Shown one piece after another: positions 6,591 to 12,489 of a DNA stretch of 64,000 nt (position 1 is the first letter of the stretch; each line of letters begins with the position of its first letter). A model generated the notes under the pieces. It did no database searches. It had not been told where the DNA came from and saw nothing but the letters and a program-made list of their open reading frames with translations. Made by a program: the position numbers and the translations under genes. The stretch is from contig NZ_CP011340.1 of assembly GCF_001278075.1 (NCBI RefSeq), forward strand, positions 7,189,501 through 7,253,500, read 5' to 3'. The stretch is from Streptomyces pristinaespiralis. GTDB taxonomy: Bacteria; Actinomycetota; Actinomycetes; Streptomycetales; Streptomycetaceae.

Positions 6591-7700
6591 CTACGGGATC
6601 CGCCGCTGATCGCCGGACGGCTTCGACGACGGCCCTGACGACGGCCCCGGCGCGCCGCGCCGGCGACCCAGCCGGGACAGGACGTGGGCCGCGTCGCGGC
6701 CCACGCCGCGCAGCGTCTTGGACGAGAAGCTCCGCTGGAACTCCATGCCGACGAACCCGAGCGACGGCACGGCGGTGGCGAGGCCGCCGCGGTGCCGGGG
6801 CCGGCCGTCGGCGTCCAGGGCCCCGCTGCCGGTCAGGTAGGGGAAGGCGAGGCGGTACCCGGTGGCCCAGACGACCGCGTCGACCGGTTCCTTCGTACCG
6901 TCGGCCCACAGCACGCCGTCCCGGGTGAGGCGGGTGAACATCTCCCGCCGGTCCACGCCGTACTCCTCGAGGGCGGAGCGGTGGTGCCCGTCGTCGAGGA
7001 CGGAGACCGGCACCCTGGTCAGCAGCCGGCGCAGCGGCGCGGTGTCGAAGCGGGTGTGCTCGAACCACCAGTGCACGTCCCGGCCCAGCGGTCGCTGTGG
7101 CGTCCAGCCGATGGGGCGGCGGGTGGCGAGCGTGGTGTCGGCGACCGCGCCGAGTTCGGCGGCGATCTGGACGGCGGAGTTGCCGCCGCCCACGACCACG
7201 ACCCGCCGGCCGGTAAAGGGGCCGGGCCTGCGGTATTCGGCGGCATGCAGTTGCTGCCCAGCGAACCCGTCCCGCCCGGGCACGTCCGGCAGGTACGGGT
7301 TCGTGTAGTCGCCGGTCGCCGCGACGATCGCGCGTGCCGTGATCTGCCTGCCGTCGTCCGAGCCGACCACCCAGGTGCCGTCCCGGCGGGTCACGGAGGT
7401 GACTTCGGTGGACGTGCGGATGTCGGCGGGCAGGCGGCTCGCGTAGTCGCGCAGGTAGTCGACCACCTCGTCCCGCCTCGGGTAGCGGTCCGGATCGCCG
7501 GGGAAGCGCATCCCGGGCAAAGAGGAGTAACGGGCGGGGGAGAAGAGGGTGAGGCTGTCGTAGTAGCGCGGCCAAGCCCCGCCCGCCTGGTCGGCGGCTT
7601 CGAGAACCAGGGTGCGGGCGAAGCCGTGACGGGGTGCGAGCGCGGCGGTGGCCAGGCCGGACTGGCCTGCTCCGACGACGACGAGGTCGGCGTGTTCCAT
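6591..7700 (-). CDS. Flavin-containing monooxygenase-like FAD/NAD(P) enzyme
   Basis: A 369-residue flavoprotein. The FAD-binding motif VVGAGQSGLA is at residues 7-16, the NAD(P)-binding motif VVVGGGNSAVQIA near residue 165, and an ATG-type motif in AVVWATGYR near 300. This two-nucleotide layout is that of small flavin-containing monooxygenases, including the ArsO proteins found in actinomycete arsenic clusters. It is divergent from an ArsR-type gene (60-bp gap), so that regulator probably controls it. ATG 7700 begins exactly at the conserved start; the upstream extension overlaps the regulator. The ArsO role is an inference from context. Confidence 0.85.
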   Translation of the reverse strand: MEHADLVVVGAGQSGLATAALAPRHGFARTLVLEAADQAGGAWPRYYDSLTLFSPARYSSLPGMRFPGDPDRYPRRDEVVDYLRDYASRLPADIRTSTEVTSVTRRDGTWVVGSDDGRQITARAIVAATGDYTNPYLPDVPGRDGFAGQQLHAAEYRRPGPFTGRRVVVVGGGNSAVQIAAELGAVADTTLATRRPIGWTPQRPLGRDVHWWFEHTRFDTAPLRRLLTRVPVSVLDDGHHRSALEEYGVDRREMFTRLTRDGVLWADGTKEPVDAVVWATGYRLAFPYLTGSGALDADGRPRHRGGLATAVPSLGFVGMEFQRSFSSKTLRGVGRDAAHVLSRLGRRRGAPGPSSGPSSKPSGDQRRIP

Positions 7701-7727
7701 GAGAAGGTGAACTCCAATACATCGTTG

Positions 7728-7745
7728 TTTCGGGAACTGTCGAAA
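7728..7745. promoter_or_regulatory. Inverted repeat TTTCG-N8-CGAAA between divergent genes
   Basis: Five-base arms lie in the 60-bp gap between the flavoprotein and arsR genes and could be the ArsR operator. The arms are short, so confidence is low. Confidence 0.3.
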
Positions 7746-7761
7746 TGTTGGAGACGGGGCT

Positions 7762-8088
7762 GTGGCAGCAGGAAGCGATCCGGACGCGGGGGTCGACCGG
7801 GCGACGGCCGACTTCCTCAAGGCTTTGGCGAGCGAGACCCGCCAGCTGATCATGCGGCAGTTCGCCGGCGGCCGGGAGCTCGGCGTCGGTGAGATCGCCG
7901 AGCGCTGCGGACTGAAGCCGTCGACCGCCTCGGAGCACCTGAGCCTGCTGCGCCGTGGTGGCCTGGTCCTCTCCCGCAAGGAGGGCAAGCAGGTCTTCTA
8001 CCGAGCGGACGGCGCCACCATGGCGAACCGTCTGGATGCGCTCAAGGAGTACCTGCTGCGCTGCTGCCCGCCCGACTGCACCGGCTGA
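7762..8088 (+). CDS. arsR: ArsR-family winged-helix regulator
   Basis: A 108-residue ArsR-type protein: FLKALASETRQLIMRQFAGG, then the reading helix in CGLKPSTASEHLSLLRRGGL, then the wing LSRKEGKQVFYRADG. It lacks the CxC of classical ArsR in the DNA-binding helix but ends in LRCCPPDCTG, three cysteines that could form a C-terminal thiolate site, as in some atypical ArsR proteins. GTG 7762 is the start. It is divergent from the FMO-like gene and converges on the second arsR. Confidence 0.88.
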   Translation: MAAGSDPDAGVDRATADFLKALASETRQLIMRQFAGGRELGVGEIAERCGLKPSTASEHLSLLRRGGLVLSRKEGKQVFYRADGATMANRLDALKEYLLRCCPPDCTG

Positions 8089-8237
8089 CCGGCCCGACCG
8101 GGGGCGGACCGGGCGCGCAGGTCGAGCGCTCGAGCCACACTGCCGGCCGCCTGGCCGGACCGGCTGACCGGCGCGACCGGACGAGTCGTCGGGCAGGTCG
8201 AGGCGCTCGACCGCGCTGCCGGCCGCACCGGCTGACC
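8080..8237. repeat. Imperfect tandem duplication between convergent arsR genes
   Basis: The string ACCGGCTGACC recurs at 8080, 8159 and 8227, bounding two related copies of 79 and 68 bases. Both contain GACCGG, GCAGGTCGAG, GCGCTCGA and CTGCCGGCCGC in the same order. The first copy begins at the stop of the arsR at 7762; the last ends 16 bp before the stop of the arsR at 8253. Confidence 0.7.
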
Positions 8238-8252
8238 TCCCTTACGGGACGG

Positions 8253-8618
8253 TCAGGTGCGCAGATCGAGCATGGCGGACATCGCCGCCACCACGGACGG
8301 GGCGACCTGGTAGTACACCCATGTGCCGCGCCGCTCGGACGTCAGCAGCCCTGCCTCGCGCAGCTTCTTCAGGTGGTGCGAGACGGTCGGCTGCGAGACG
8401 CCGACATCGGCGATGTCGCACACGCACGCCTCGCCGCCCGGGTGCGAGGCCACCTTGGAGAACAGGCGCAACCGCACGGGGTCCGACAGCGCCTTGAACA
8501 TGGCGGCCATCTTCTCCGCGTCCGCCTGTGACAGCTCCCCGGCGGCGATCGGCGGGCAGCACGGCACCACGATCTCGCTCTCGAGGACGGGCAGCTGCGC
8601 GACTTCTGATTTCGACAT
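8253..8618 (-). CDS. arsR: ArsR-family arsenite/metal-responsive repressor
   Basis: A 121-residue ArsR. The helix motif ACVCDIADVGVSQPTVSHHL carries C65-V-C67-D, the As(III)-binding CxCD of the classical ArsR/ELCVCD type; a further C20-C21 pair sits near the N-terminus. Such proteins leave the operator when arsenite binds. The ATG at 8618 removes a poorly conserved N-terminal extension and is the likely start. It is divergent from the small CxxC protein, flavoprotein and CadI/ArsI genes, with an inverted repeat between, and probably represses that operon. Confidence 0.93.
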   Translation of the reverse strand: MSKSEVAQLPVLESEIVVPCCPPIAAGELSQADAEKMAAMFKALSDPVRLRLFSKVASHPGGEACVCDIADVGVSQPTVSHHLKKLREAGLLTSERRGTWVYYQVAPSVVAAMSAMLDLRT

Positions 8619-8657
8619 GTGTCTATGTTGACACTCGTCGATACGAGTGGCAAGCTC

Positions 8658-8677
8658 CGATGTATCGACAGACATCG
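8658..8677. promoter_or_regulatory. Likely ArsR operator CGATGT-N8-ACATCG
   Basis: Six-base arms flank ATCGACAG in the gap between arsR (minus) and the metalloid operon (plus). Related TCGATA/TATCGA strings at 8637-8643 and 8663-8668 suggest a second half-site. The position 16 bp before the first operon gene fits repression of both promoters. Confidence 0.55.
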
Positions 8678-8692
8678 AAACAGGGGGTTGTC

Positions 8693-8863
8693 GTGACGAC
8701 AGCGATCCGCACCGCGCTCAGCGCCGCCAAGGCGCGCCGCACCGCCCGCCACATGGCCGGCGTCAGCTTCTGCGACTCGTGCGCCCGGATCAGCGACAGT
8801 GCCGGCCGAGCTGCGCAACGACAGGCGCACGCTCGGCTGACCGCGCTCATCCACTCCCGCTGA
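8693..8863 (+). CDS. Small CxxC protein at head of metalloid operon
   Basis: A 56-residue basic, Ala-rich protein with one conspicuous motif, SFCDSCARI, at residues 25-33. The N-terminal half (TALSAAKARRTARH) should form an amphipathic helix. GTG 8693 is preceded by GGGGG at good spacing, and the codons show the expected third-position GC. I do not recognise the family. The CxxC pair and its place as the first gene behind the ArsR operator suggest a thiol or metal-binding accessory role, but that is inference. Confidence 0.65.
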   Translation: MTTAIRTALSAAKARRTARHMAGVSFCDSCARISDSAGRAAQRQAHARLTALIHSR

Positions 8864-8894
8864 CCACCCCACCGCACCGAGGAGATCCATCACC

Positions 8895-10256
8895 ATGAGC
8901 ACCCAGCAGCTCCCCGTCATCGTCATCGGAGCCGGCCCCATCGGACTCGCGGCCGCCGCCCATCTGCTGGAGCGCGGCATCGAGCCCCTCGTTCTCGAGG
9001 CAGGTGACGCGGCCGGCGCCGCCGTGCGCGAGTGGAGCCATGTGCGGCTGTTCTCCACCTGGGGCGAAGTCGTCGACCCTGCCGCGGAGAAGCTGCTGGC
9101 CCCGACCGGCTGGGTCAGGCCCGACGCCGACACCTACCCGTCCGGTGGCGACTGGGCCGAGCGGTACCTCCGGCCGCTCGCCGCCGTCCTCGGCGACCGG
9201 GTGCGCCTGGGCGCCACCGTCACCGGCGTCTCCCGCTCCGGCCGTGACCGGGTGGTCGACGCCGACCGTGAGAGCCGGCCCTACGTCGTCCACGTCGAGC
9301 ACGCCGACGGCCGCGAGGAGCGGCTGACCGCCCGCGCCGTGATCGACGCCTCCGGCACCTGGGCCACCCCCGGCCCGGCAGGCGGCAGCGGCCTCCCCGC
9401 CCTCGGCGAGAAGGCGGCGGCCGACCGCATCACCTACCGCGTCCCGGACCTCAAGGACCCGGCCGTACGCGCCCGTTACGCGGGCCGCCGCACGGCGGTC
9501 ATCGGCTCCGGCGCCTCCGCGTTCACCGCGCTCGCCTACCTCGCCGACCTGGCCAGGTCGCAGGACGGCGTCGGCACCCACGGCGTGTGGATCCTGCGCC
9601 GCGGCATCTCCGGCTCCACCTTCGGCGGCGGCGAGGCCGACCAGCTCCCCGCCCGCGGCGCCCTCGGCCTCGCCGCCAAGGCAGCCGTCGACGGCGGCTA
9701 CGCCGACGCCGTCACCGGCTTCCGCACCGAGGCCGTCGAACGCGACACGGACGGCCGTCTGGTTCTCGTCGGCGAGGACGGCCGCCGCCTGGACCCGGTC
9801 GACGAGGTCATCGTGCTCACCGGCTTCCGCCCCGACCTCACGTTCCTCGACGAGCTGCGCCTCGGTCTGGACGACCGCCTCCAGGCCCCCGTCGCGCTGG
9901 CGCCGCTGATCGACCCCAACCAGCACTCGTGCGGCACGGTCTATCCCCACGGCGTGAACGAGCTCTCCCACCCGGAGAAGGACGTCTACCTGGTCGGCAT
10001 GAAGTCCTACGGCCGCGCCCCCACCTTCCTCGCGATGACCGGCTACGAGCAGGTCCGCTCCGTCGCCGCGTCCCTGGCCGGCGACCAGGAGGCCGCCGAG
10101 CGCGTGGAGCTGACCCTCCCCGAGACCGGCGTGTGCGGCGGAGCGGGACTGTTCGACGAGCCCGAGACCGCGCAGTCCGACGGCGGCGGCTGCTGCGCGG
10201 CCCCCGCCACCCTCCAGATCGGCGTCGGCGCCCCCGCCATCTCCGGCGGCTGCTGA
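8895..10256 (+). CDS. FAD/NAD(P) oxidoreductase with cysteine-rich tail (ArsO-like)
   Basis: A 453-residue flavoprotein. FAD motif VIVIGAGPIGLAAAAHLL is at residues 8-25, an NAD(P) motif AVIGSGASAFTALAYL near 200, and a VLTGFRPD motif near 305. The last 40 residues are unusual: cysteines at 414, 433, 434 and 453 in a Gly/Ala-rich linker (GGGCCAAP ... SGGC). It lies behind an ArsR operator and 33 bp before a CadI/ArsI gene, so it most likely oxidises or reduces an arsenical or handles bound metalloid. Streptomyces ars clusters are known to carry putative flavin monooxygenases (arsO) and thioredoxin reductases (arsT). The exact reaction is not known. Confidence 0.87.
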   Translation: MSTQQLPVIVIGAGPIGLAAAAHLLERGIEPLVLEAGDAAGAAVREWSHVRLFSTWGEVVDPAAEKLLAPTGWVRPDADTYPSGGDWAERYLRPLAAVLGDRVRLGATVTGVSRSGRDRVVDADRESRPYVVHVEHADGREERLTARAVIDASGTWATPGPAGGSGLPALGEKAAADRITYRVPDLKDPAVRARYAGRRTAVIGSGASAFTALAYLADLARSQDGVGTHGVWILRRGISGSTFGGGEADQLPARGALGLAAKAAVDGGYADAVTGFRTEAVERDTDGRLVLVGEDGRRLDPVDEVIVLTGFRPDLTFLDELRLGLDDRLQAPVALAPLIDPNQHSCGTVYPHGVNELSHPEKDVYLVGMKSYGRAPTFLAMTGYEQVRSVAASLAGDQEAAERVELTLPETGVCGGAGLFDEPETAQSDGGGCCAAPATLQIGVGAPAISGGC

Positions 10257-10289
10257 CGCTCAACCACCCCATCCAGCAGGAGGACCGTC

Positions 10290-10742
10290 ATGTCCCGTGT
10301 ACAGCTCGCCCTGCGCGTCCCCGACCTGGCCGCATCCGTCGCCTTCTACACGAAGCTCTTCGGCGCCGAGCCGGCCAAGCTCCGTGACGGCTACGCCAAC
10401 TTCGCCATCGCCGAGCCCCCGCTCAAGCTCGTCCTCATCGAGGGCGCGGCGGACGAGGACACGCGTATGGACCACCTCGGCGTGGAGGTCGAAAGCACCG
10501 AGGCCGTTCACGCGGCCACCGCCCGACTGGACGAGGCGGGCCTCGCGACGGCTGAGGAGAACGACACCAGCTGTTGCTACGCCCTCCAGGACAAGGTCTG
10601 GGTCCATGGCCCCGGCCGGGAGCCCTGGGAGGTGTACGTCGTCAAGGCCGACGCCGCCAACCTGACCAAGCAACAGGGCAGCTCGTGCTGCGCCGGGCCG
10701 GCCGCCGACGACACCGACGCTCGCGCCGGCGCCTGCTGCTGA
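10290..10742 (+). CDS. arsI: ArsI/CadI-family metalloenzyme (VOC fold) with Cys tail
   Basis: A 150-residue vicinal-oxygen-chelate protein. The N-terminus MSRVQLALRVPDLAASVAFY, DHLGVEVES, and TSCCYALQDKVWVHGPG are characteristic of ArsI/CadI. ArsI cleaves the C-As bond of trivalent methylarsenicals; CadI is a cadmium-induced relative. The vicinal pair C95-C96 would bind the arsenical; H62 and E114 match metal ligands, but residue 5 is Gln where ArsI enzymes described from bacilli have His, as in mycobacterial CadI. Extra cysteines at 133-134 and 149-150 form a tail. CAGGAGG precedes ATG 10290. A strong terminator follows. Confidence 0.88.
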   Translation: MSRVQLALRVPDLAASVAFYTKLFGAEPAKLRDGYANFAIAEPPLKLVLIEGAADEDTRMDHLGVEVESTEAVHAATARLDEAGLATAEENDTSCCYALQDKVWVHGPGREPWEVYVVKADAANLTKQQGSSCCAGPAADDTDARAGACC

Positions 10743-10973: not shown

Positions 10974-10992
10974 GATACCCCCTGGGGGTATC
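10974..10992. promoter_or_regulatory. CsoR-like operator 1 of the DHA2 transporter
   Basis: GATACCCCC-T-GGGGGTATC, 9-base arms perfectly complementary around a single T. The site overlaps possible promoter hexamers (TTGCCC near 10965 and TATCTT near 10989), so a bound repressor would block RNA polymerase. The TACCCC..GGGGTA core is the known site type of CsoR-family regulators. Confidence 0.7.
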
Positions 10993-11004
10993 TTGCGATC
11001 GACA

Positions 11005-11022
11005 GATACCCCCTGGGGGTAC
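11005..11022. promoter_or_regulatory. CsoR-like operator 2 of the DHA2 transporter
   Basis: GATACCCCC-T-GGGGGTAC repeats operator 1 with the last arm base changed, 31 bp downstream (about three helical turns) and 21 bp before the start codon. The spacing places both sites on the same DNA face, which favours cooperative binding. Confidence 0.7.
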
Positions 11023-11043: not shown

Positions 11044-12489
11044 ATGTCAACGGTCAATCCCCGGCGGTGGTGGGCGCTCGCCGTGCTCGCAGCCGCCCAG
11101 TTCATGGTGATCATGGACACCTCGATCATCGGGGTCGCGCTCCCCGAGATGCAGAAGGACCTCGGCTTCTCGCAGGGCGAGCTCCAGTGGGTGTTCAACG
11201 CGTACGTCATCGCCTTCGGCGGCCTGCTGCTCCTCGGCGGACGTCTCTCCGACCTGCTCGGCGCACGCAAGGTGTTCAATGCCGGCTGGGTCGTGATGAT
11301 CGCCGGCTCCGTCGTCGCCGCGGCGGCCCAGACCGCCTGGGTCGAGGTCCTCGGCCGCGCCGTCCAGGGTGCCGGCGGAGCGCTCATCGCCCCGGCCGCG
11401 ATGACGCTCCTGATGATGCTCTTCGGGCACGACCCGAAGGAGCTCGGCAAGGCGATGGCCCTCTACGGTGCCGCCGCTCCCGCGGGCGGCACCGCCGGTG
11501 TGTTCCTCGGCGGTGTATTCACCGAGTGGCTGAGCTGGCCGTGGGTGTTCATCGTCTACGTACCGATCGGCCTGGCGACCCTCGCGGCGACCCGGCTGCT
11601 GCCGTCCGTCGAGAGCCGTCGCGGTTCCGTCGACGTGCTGGGCGCGGCCGCCGTCACCGCCGGGCTCGCGCTCACGGTCTTCGCCGTCGTCCGGGCACCG
11701 GAGGCGGGCTGGGGGTCGACCGGAACCGTGCTGCAGTTGGCCGGTGCCGCCGCTCTGCTGATCCTGTTCCTCGTGATCCAGCGGTCGGTGCGCCGGCCGC
11801 TCATGCCGCTCGGCATCTGGCGTGTGCCGCGGCTCGGCCCGGCCAACCTGGCCATGACGCTGCTGGGCGCCGCCTGGATCCCGATGTGGTACTTCCTCAA
11901 CCTCTATTTGCAGCAGGTCCTCGGCCACGGGGCCTTCGCCTCCGGCGCCGCCCTGCTGCCCATGACCGTGCTCCTCATGATCTTCATGACGGCCGTCACG
12001 GCCCGGCTGATGGGCAGGTTCGGAGCCAAGCCGCTGATCGCCGGCGGTCTGCTGGTCCTCGCCGCGGGCCTGCTGTGGCTCTCCGCCGTGGAGCCGACCG
12101 GTACGTTCCTGATCGACGTCCTGCCCGCGTCGCTGGTCGCCGCGCTGGGCATGTCGCTCGCCTACATCCCGGCCATGATGGCCGCGATGTCCGGCGCCCC
12201 GCAGGAGCAGGCCGGTCTCGCGTCCGGCATCGTCAACACGACGTACAACGTGGGTTCGGCCCTCGGTCTGGCCGCCCTGACAGCGGTGGCGATGTCGCAG
12301 GGCGCCGGCGAGCCGGGCAACCTGCCCGCGCTCACCGACGGATTCTCGTCCGCGTTCATCGGCGCCGCTGTGATCGCGGCGGTCGGTGGCGTCGTCACCC
12401 TGCTGGTCATGCGGGGTGAGAAGTCCGCCGCGGCCGCCGCGCAGGCACCTTCGGCCTCCGCGTCGCACGGTGAGCAGGTCGGCGTGTAG
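11044..12489 (+). CDS. DHA2-family (EmrB/QacA) MFS efflux transporter
   Basis: A 481-residue integral membrane protein with about 14 hydrophobic segments. Diagnostic motifs are FMVIMDTSIIGVALPEM in helix 1, the motif-A loop GGRLSDLLGARKVF, and the motif-C-like GAAAPAGGTAGVFLGG in helix 5. These proton-driven antiporters export drugs, dyes or toxic organic ions. GGGAGA precedes ATG 11044. Two CsoR-like palindromes lie in the promoter although no CsoR gene is in the window. It may export a product of the adjacent metalloid operon, but the terminator between them argues for separate control. A perfect terminator follows. Confidence 0.93.
   Translation: MSTVNPRRWWALAVLAAAQFMVIMDTSIIGVALPEMQKDLGFSQGELQWVFNAYVIAFGGLLLLGGRLSDLLGARKVFNAGWVVMIAGSVVAAAAQTAWVEVLGRAVQGAGGALIAPAAMTLLMMLFGHDPKELGKAMALYGAAAPAGGTAGVFLGGVFTEWLSWPWVFIVYVPIGLATLAATRLLPSVESRRGSVDVLGAAAVTAGLALTVFAVVRAPEAGWGSTGTVLQLAGAAALLILFLVIQRSVRRPLMPLGIWRVPRLGPANLAMTLLGAAWIPMWYFLNLYLQQVLGHGAFASGAALLPMTVLLMIFMTAVTARLMGRFGAKPLIAGGLLVLAAGLLWLSAVEPTGTFLIDVLPASLVAALGMSLAYIPAMMAAMSGAPQEQAGLASGIVNTTYNVGSALGLAALTAVAMSQGAGEPGNLPALTDGFSSAFIGAAVIAAVGGVVTLLVMRGEKSAAAAAQAPSASASHGEQVGV

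Follow-up and report, generated by a model that had tools for sequence, protein, structure and literature searches.

The window analysed here, a stretch of 64,000 nucleotides (G000:C1:7189501-7253500) on a chromosome of 8.53 Mb, carries at 6591-10742 what we read as a two-part arsenic-detoxification island: an ArsO-like gene with its regulator ArsR2, followed by an operon run by ArsR1 that encodes a small CxxC protein, a 453-residue cysteine-tailed FAD/NAD(P) flavoprotein, labelled FLAV in this report, and the predicted C-As lyase ArsI. That the operon serves arsenic, not cadmium, is well supported by sequence comparison, because its ArsI is an ortholog with intact iron and substrate residues and because arsenic genes neighbour FLAV in other genomes. 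FLAV itself likely acts on a trivalent arsenical; the ligand, the direction of the reaction and the function of the tail given below are proposals. The account as a whole, including FLAV as an oxidase of trivalent arsenicals, seems to us somewhat likelier to hold than to fail.

The first-pass annotation of this DNA had listed a CxCD ArsR, a 56-residue CxxC open reading frame (ORF), the 453-residue flavoprotein and an ArsI/CadI-family VOC protein, all of which are present in the sequence; it had overlooked two genes directly upstream, the ArsO-like gene and a second arsR (Table 1). In a protein search, the nearest named FLAV proteins, at 98 percent identity, were those of Streptomyces graminofaciens and S. 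pristinaespiralis.

FLAV and its arsenic neighbourhoods

FLAV is usually annotated as ‘NAD(P)-binding domain-containing protein’ or ‘FAD-dependent oxidoreductase’ and is present in 69 of 121 genomes of the same genus. Comparisons drew on 80 FLAV loci, the best of 508 confirmed relatives and nearly all from Streptomyces, of which the 57 with full flanks form the base for neighbour counts; on 240 FLAV proteins, made up of the top 120 among roughly 8,000 in each of two capped searches; and on 14 plasmid regions, hand-chosen out of 130 records. At the 57 flanked loci, FLAV is accompanied by a divergent ArsR in 45, ArsC in 43, Acr3 in 31, an ArsK-like major facilitator superfamily (MFS) protein in 22, ArsN1 in 20, ArsI in 15, MIP in 13 and an ArsO-like protein in 11, counts that are approximate, the profiles having been built from the same loci and most of them named by a single representative. 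At least one of nine ars-type features is found in 56 of the 57 loci (the exception is L067), and Acr3, ArsC, MIP or an ArsK-like MFS protein is present in 52 and absent in 5. With a single Acr3 in the 8.53 Mb of the window's own genome, chance would not be expected to produce such neighbours. Ten of the 11 relatives L099-L109 (48-59 percent identity) are accompanied by one or more ars-type profile matches, in some cases weak; none was found at L109 (2.7 kb) or at the four most distant and likewise short loci, L110-L113 (36-40 percent). By raw counts, ArsN1 and ArsI seem to avoid each other beside FLAV, occurring together in 2 of the 57 loci.

Annotated arsenic genes are found in 11 of the 14 plasmid regions (FR-008, FR1, Ensifer, Afipia, Rhizobium, Pseudomonas, Cytobacillus, Paenibacillus, Priestia, Kocuria and Arthrobacter), and two Rhodococcus plasmid regions have FLAV-MFS with an ArsR-family gene as the sole ars-type annotation. 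The Ensifer plasmid has the order ArsR-FLAV-ArsK, and the Ensifer and Rhizobium MFS genes, labelled arsK, overlap the FLAV gene by 4 bases. Against NF033733 (cut-off 400), the ArsK-like MFS proteins beside FLAV scored 152 to 242 bits in 5 of 6 scanned, with no match in Cytobacillus. On this neighbourhood evidence, FLAV is a member of an ars-associated family that occurs in Actinomycetota, Proteobacteria and Bacillota and frequently has an ArsK-like exporter beside it.

Some plasmid copies have features of their own. In L147 (4960-5841) and L148 (4968-5837), both on Rhodococcus plasmids, an ArsR-family regulator fused to an ArsN1-like acetyltransferase domain (139.5 bits in L147, under the cut-off of 170) is divergent from FLAV-MFS. 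On Rhizobium rhizogenes pC6.5c (L142, 1-12224), the sets arsR-arsC-acr3-arsC-arsH and arsR-FLAV-arsK lie between TniB/TniQ genes, apparently as Tn7-like cargo; a TniQ gene is also close to the FLAV copy on the FR-008 plasmid. On two Bacillota plasmids (L144, 7302-7511; L146, 7308-7514), alike proteins of 69 and 68 residues, without CxxC, are encoded between FLAV and the MFS gene.

Five cysteines of FLAV (Table 1) are conserved. Structure comparison places its fold nearest to the bacillithiol disulfide reductase YpdA/Bdr; the score against the Bthiol_YpdA model is 41.1 bits, under the cut-off of 339.9, the cysteine in the GPCGL of the YpdA chain is replaced in the alignment (GPIGL in the window), and a CxxC or CxxxxC redox pair is absent from 240 of 240 FLAV proteins. 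The flavoprotein had at first been likened to ArsO, a likeness that did not withstand comparison: it reaches 49.2 bits against NF040505 (cut-off 425), and FxGxxxHxxx(Y/F/W), the flavin-containing monooxygenase (FMO) motif, occurs in 0 of 240 FLAV proteins versus 13 of 16 ArsO-like proteins (for which the pattern also allowed a final L, as in one of the 13). FLAV as the ArsO of an arsRBOCT-type cluster was likewise rejected, the ArsO of the FR-008 plasmid scoring 554 bits and being identical to FLAV at only 120 of 319 aligned residues. Selenocysteine was set aside, the in-frame TGA of four matches being an ordinary stop right after the CC tail, as was an anti-phage link, for which nothing beyond a weak generic FAD match was found.

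Probable regulation by ArsR1 and the partnership with ArsI

Between arsR1 and the operon, a promoter-like TTGACA-17-CAAGCT sequence is flanked by two convergent copies of TTCGAYNNNYGTCNAT. The inverted repeat reported there by the first-pass annotation is real (arms 8610-8626 and 8664-8680) and corresponds to this conserved operator. Neither the window nor the rest of the chromosome holds a further exact match, and a reversed control pattern gave 0; a third operator-like site in the window carries one mismatch. The 80 FLAV loci (1,272,619 bases) contain 148 exact sites, every one of them no more than 1.4 kb upstream of FLAV, and in 76 loci at least one site falls in the 320 bp before FLAV. The pattern was derived from these same loci, and the controls of its specificity are therefore the flanking DNA and the window's entire genome. 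It was not found in L086 and L088, the loci of the genome's Acr3 cluster. In 58 of 80 loci, the promoter motif, as TTGACn-17-CAnnCT, lies no further than 320 bp upstream of FLAV; it has 66 matches in total in 2,545,238 strand-bases.

ArsR1, the putative repressor of the operon, passes the HTH_metalloreg model (Table 1) and scores 103.4 bits against the Rv2640c-family model, under the cut-off of 155. As had been claimed, it is a minus-strand ArsR with the classical CxCD motif, here CVCD, but the third cysteine of the classical site is missing, and a vicinal CC stands at the N-terminus besides. Translation probably starts at ATG 8618, not 8675, since the former is kept in the window and 8 aligned relatives and the latter is lost in 2 of the 8 (L025 and L060). 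The best PDB match is chain 6j0e, a C. glutamicum protein. The N-terminal CC resembles that of C. glutamicum ArsR, going by the sites described in PMC11868830.

ArsI passes the ArsI/CadI model and is identical to the crystallised ArsI of Thermomonospora curvata (PDB 5d4f, 5c4p and others) at 93 of 122 residues, without gaps. All named metal-binding, substrate-binding or catalytic residues are kept (Q5, H62, C95, C96, K102 and E114); the iron ligands, vicinal cysteine pair and lysine of the T. curvata protein are named in PMC12607644, from whose numbering ours is derived by subtracting 3. The window copy differs in standing in an operon with FLAV and in having a long tail with two CC pairs, the PDB chains being of 123-126 residues. 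The assignment of the VOC protein as an ArsI ortholog, with C-As bond cleavage as its predicted activity, is supported by these matches.

The first-pass annotation had also suggested a path in which the flavoprotein converts an arsenical and ArsI breaks it. As a fixed scheme this is not general. An obligate FLAV-ArsI pathway was rejected on the adjacency counts, ArsI following FLAV in 22 of 80 loci by profile (23 of 80 by tblastn), and on a co-occurrence under expectation: among 121 same-genus genomes, ArsI is present in 46, FLAV in 69 and both in 20, versus 26.2 expected (Fisher p 0.023, relatedness ignored). FLAV without ArsI is commoner (58/80 loci; 49/69 genomes). In 15 of the 20 genomes with both, ArsI lies directly downstream of FLAV.

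The common Streptomyces ArsI locus, in which ArsR with Acr3 or MIP and ArsC is divergent from ArsI, shares ArsR and ArsI with the window; at 20 FLAV-less ArsI loci, ArsR is present in 19, Acr3 or MIP in 16 and ArsC in 15. It differs in lacking FLAV (0/20), in belonging to the other ArsI subclade (10/12) and in tails that end in CxC (8/12). In the ArsI tree, which was built from the window copy, 16 of the 22-23 ArsI of FLAV loci and 12 of the 20 unlinked copies (the rest were missed by the start and CC patterns), the 17 FLAV-linked copies belong to a single group of 19. The other two in that group, L132 and L133, are unlinked, and their genomes carry a distant FLAV (56-57 percent) some 24-25 kb off on the same contig. 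Tails of linked ArsI end in CC in 16 of 17, those of unlinked ArsI in 2 of 12. Judged by tree and tails, ArsI beside FLAV is a distinct subclade; to FLAV it is an optional, specialised partner. The FLAV tree has 15 changes of ArsI label, at least 4 of them forced by well-supported branches. Repeated recruitment of ArsI to FLAV was rejected on the grouping of linked copies in the ArsI tree; that tree needs 2 changes of label, which agrees better with ArsI having been lost from the module or transferred within it, many branches being weakly supported. No description of the FLAV-ArsI operon was found in the open literature searched, which is weak evidence as key papers lay outside its reach.

Table 1. 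Features of the arsenic island, with positions in the window.
Feature	Position	Strand	Basis
ArsO-like flavin-containing monooxygenase (our label ArsO2), 369 aa	6591..7700	-	NCBIfam ArsO 267 bits; motif FAGQQLHAAEY
ArsR2, 108 aa, Cys101-102 and Cys106 at C-terminus	7762..8088	+	HTH_metalloreg 72.3 bits, cut-off 55
ArsR1, 121 aa, N-terminal CC and CxCD	8253..8618	-	HTH_metalloreg (NF033788) 93.7 bits, cut-off 55; start from alignment
Operator box 1, TTCGACATGTGTCTAT	8611..8626	+	Operator pattern search
Predicted operon promoter TTGACA-17-CAAGCT, between boxes	8628..8656	+	Motif upstream of FLAV in 58/80 loci
Operator box 2, TTCGATGTCTGTCGAT	8664..8679	-	Operator pattern search
CxxC small protein, 56 residues, GTG start	8693..8863	+	Homologues in 8/80 loci
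FLAV, Cys-tailed FAD/NAD(P) flavoprotein, 453 aa	8895..10256	+	Cys346, Cys414, Cys433-434, Cys453
ArsI, predicted C-As lyase, 150 aa, Cys-rich tail ending CC	10290..10742	+	NF041414 (ArsI/CadI) 202.8 bits, cut-off 116; identity to T. curvata ArsI

Proposed mechanism and alternatives

In the proposed mechanism, ArsR1 would repress from two boxes that face each other across the operon promoter, and a trivalent arsenical bound to its cysteines would bring about its release. The derepressed operon would then supply the CxxC peptide, FLAV and ArsI. By orthology, ArsI would be an Fe(II) dioxygenase that cleaves the C-As bond in trivalent organoarsenicals, methylarsenite among them, and the resulting As(III) would be exported by the Acr3 encoded 327 kb away. 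In FLAV, electrons would pass from NAD(P)H to FAD, and the cysteine-rich tail probably grips arsenic: disordered and bearing a vicinal cysteine pair, it would catch trivalent arsenicals and hand them to the flavin near Cys346, a delivery for which the tail of MerA serves as comparison. The likeliest net reaction would turn trivalent organoarsenicals, perhaps also antimonite, into pentavalent, less toxic forms, as ArsV reportedly does. The ArsO-like monooxygenase, under ArsR2, would work in parallel.

Oxidation is favoured on two grounds: ArsV, likewise a flavin enzyme, is paired with an efflux protein in a matching arrangement, and FLAV usually occurs without ArsI. In ArsV/ArsW, a system of methylarsenite and antimonite resistance, a flavin monooxygenase is paired with an efflux protein in a layout like the Ensifer ArsR-FLAV-ArsK. 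ArsV is named an organoarsenical oxidase in PMC11719878 and ArsW an efflux transporter in PMC9144182. FLAV is possibly identical with the published ArsV; among the matches of the scanned proteins, no NCBIfam model bears that name. A reaction for FLAV would fill a gap in the handling of arsenic-based antibiotics by soil bacteria, and the two-box operator makes the FLAV regulon and its inducer directly testable. If FLAV is ArsV, the gain would be smaller, namely a name and a wide distribution for the actinobacterial members, plus the FLAV-ArsI pairing.

Several points weigh against this account. The term ‘oxidation’ rests on the analogy with ArsV, because FLAV is without the FMO motif (0/240). 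ArsI and FLAV would compete for methylarsenite, and the two are found together less than chance predicts. In Roseomonas, no ars gene is annotated within about 6 kb of FLAV-MFS. The operator also occurs apart from FLAV, with one exact match near ArsR in 3 of the 20 FLAV-less ArsI loci (L123, L134 and L137). Tail delivery has no structural support, because the tail and the Cys346 loop are modelled at low confidence (predicted local distance difference test score, pLDDT, <50). Two of the 13 plasmid FLAV proteins (Rhizobium and Kocuria) have a changed CGTV motif, with a cysteine near that place in each.

The missing FMO motif and a fold nearest to YpdA/Bdr would suit a reductase, which would convert pentavalent organoarsenicals (methylarsonate, arsinothricin-type) to trivalent ones, or reduce arsenic-thiol adducts, and so feed ArsI and the exporters, close to the convert-then-break idea of the first-pass annotation. 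The specialised ArsI subclade, adjacent to FLAV in 15 of 20 genomes with both, points the same way; the greater frequency of FLAV without ArsI and the lack of a redox pair in all 240 proteins argue against such a reductase, which we consider rather unlikely. Decidedly unlikely is a thiol-disulfide reductase that would repair mycothiol or protein thiols under arsenic stress with no action on arsenic itself, a role to which the YpdA-like fold and the trxB gene of some neighbouring ars clusters would lend themselves: cysteine-rich tails are kept across phyla whose low-molecular thiols differ, and the GPCGL cysteine of YpdA is replaced. A CadI-type cadmium system, raised earlier as the alternative, has in its favour the name ArsI/CadI borne by the family model, and is rendered highly improbable by the intact catalytic and substrate residues of ArsI, by the mainly arsenic-related neighbours in relatives and by the absence of a cadmium exporter among seven window proteins scanned (Pfam/NCBIfam). 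A bolder form of the oxidoreductase account, which we regard as doubtful, would have FLAV found a metalloid-oxidoreductase family that joins a YpdA-like body to a MerA-style vicinal-cysteine tail, with a dedicated ArsI subclade, its own tail likewise ending in CC, acquired in Streptomyces, trivalent organoarsenicals passed from tail to tail and the CxxC peptide as a further thiol relay.

Small protein, upstream genes and exporters

The CxxC ORF is probably a real gene, because of its GTG start and the purine-rich stretch before it, both also present in 8 relatives, its third-codon-position GC content (GC3) of 0.88 and its mean ratio of nonsynonymous to synonymous polymorphism (pN/pS) of 0.58 across 9 sequences. 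The peptide is weakly constrained beyond the CxxC core, its L067 version stops after 45 codons, and Pfam and NCBIfam gave no match to it at E 0.001. It may act as the metalloid chaperone suggested by the first-pass annotation. Among 5.8 billion proteins it had only 11 homologues, and it therefore cannot be essential to the module; by this distribution, it is a rare Streptomyces add-on. As a conserved unit, the three-gene order of small ORF, FLAV and ArsI did not stand (small ORF in 8/80 loci, ArsI in 22/80); what did stand is the pairing of ArsR with FLAV. The 8/80 count comes from alignments, a regular-expression search for small CxxC ORFs having given 2/80, one of them spurious. The ars flavoprotein locus of the FR1 plasmid has another small CxxC protein (DUF2180), and in Rhodococcus BCP1 a small CxxC DUF2703 protein precedes arsO, according to PMC6514093.

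The upstream ArsO2 protein fails the ArsO model NF040505 (267 bits, cut-off 425) and has the FMO motif; on these grounds it is a subfamily related to ArsO and separate from it. Of the two FR-008 plasmid proteins compared with it, the ArsO2 that neighbours FLAV is identical at 192 of 355 aligned residues and the ArsO at 147 of 331. That plasmid, from the same genus and presumably the published pHZ227, has an ArsR/ArsO2/FLAV/MFS island with three operator matches beside the arsR-arsB-arsO and arsC-trxB genes of an arsRBOCT-type cluster, with no ArsI annotated in the 15 kb stretch. ArsR2, divergent from the ArsO-like gene, aligns over residues 19-102 with 14-96 of PDB chain 6j05, which we take to be AfArsR, and its C-terminal CC seems to correspond to Cys95-96 of the type-2 site, provided that the end aligns without gaps. 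Between the two genes lies an imperfect inverted repeat (7712-7753, 13 nt arms 16 nt apart), a possible ArsR2 operator whose sequence is unlike the ArsR1 operator.

The first-pass annotation had seen no pump, ArsC or ArsM in the window; this was borne out for Acr3, ArsK and thioredoxin-type ArsC, which have matches only outside it, the search not extending to ArsB, ArsM and other ArsC types. The sole Acr3 of the genome (434.9 bits, cut-off 282.8) is at 7527426, 327 kb from the island, and is adjoined by an ArsC-type match of 92.3 bits (curated cut-off 174.3) that was also found by our own ArsC profile; the best ArsK match is weak (28.3 bits). Unlike many relatives, the window operon has no ArsK-like MFS gene. 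The DHA2 MFS protein encoded at 11044-12489 was considered as the operon's exporter and is not favoured, because it belongs to another family and has a palindromic region of its own upstream; it is probably a separate copper or multidrug-type unit. Just before its gene, at 10976-11021, stand two copies of TACCCCCTGGGGGTA, a pair that we take to resemble a CsoR-type operator.

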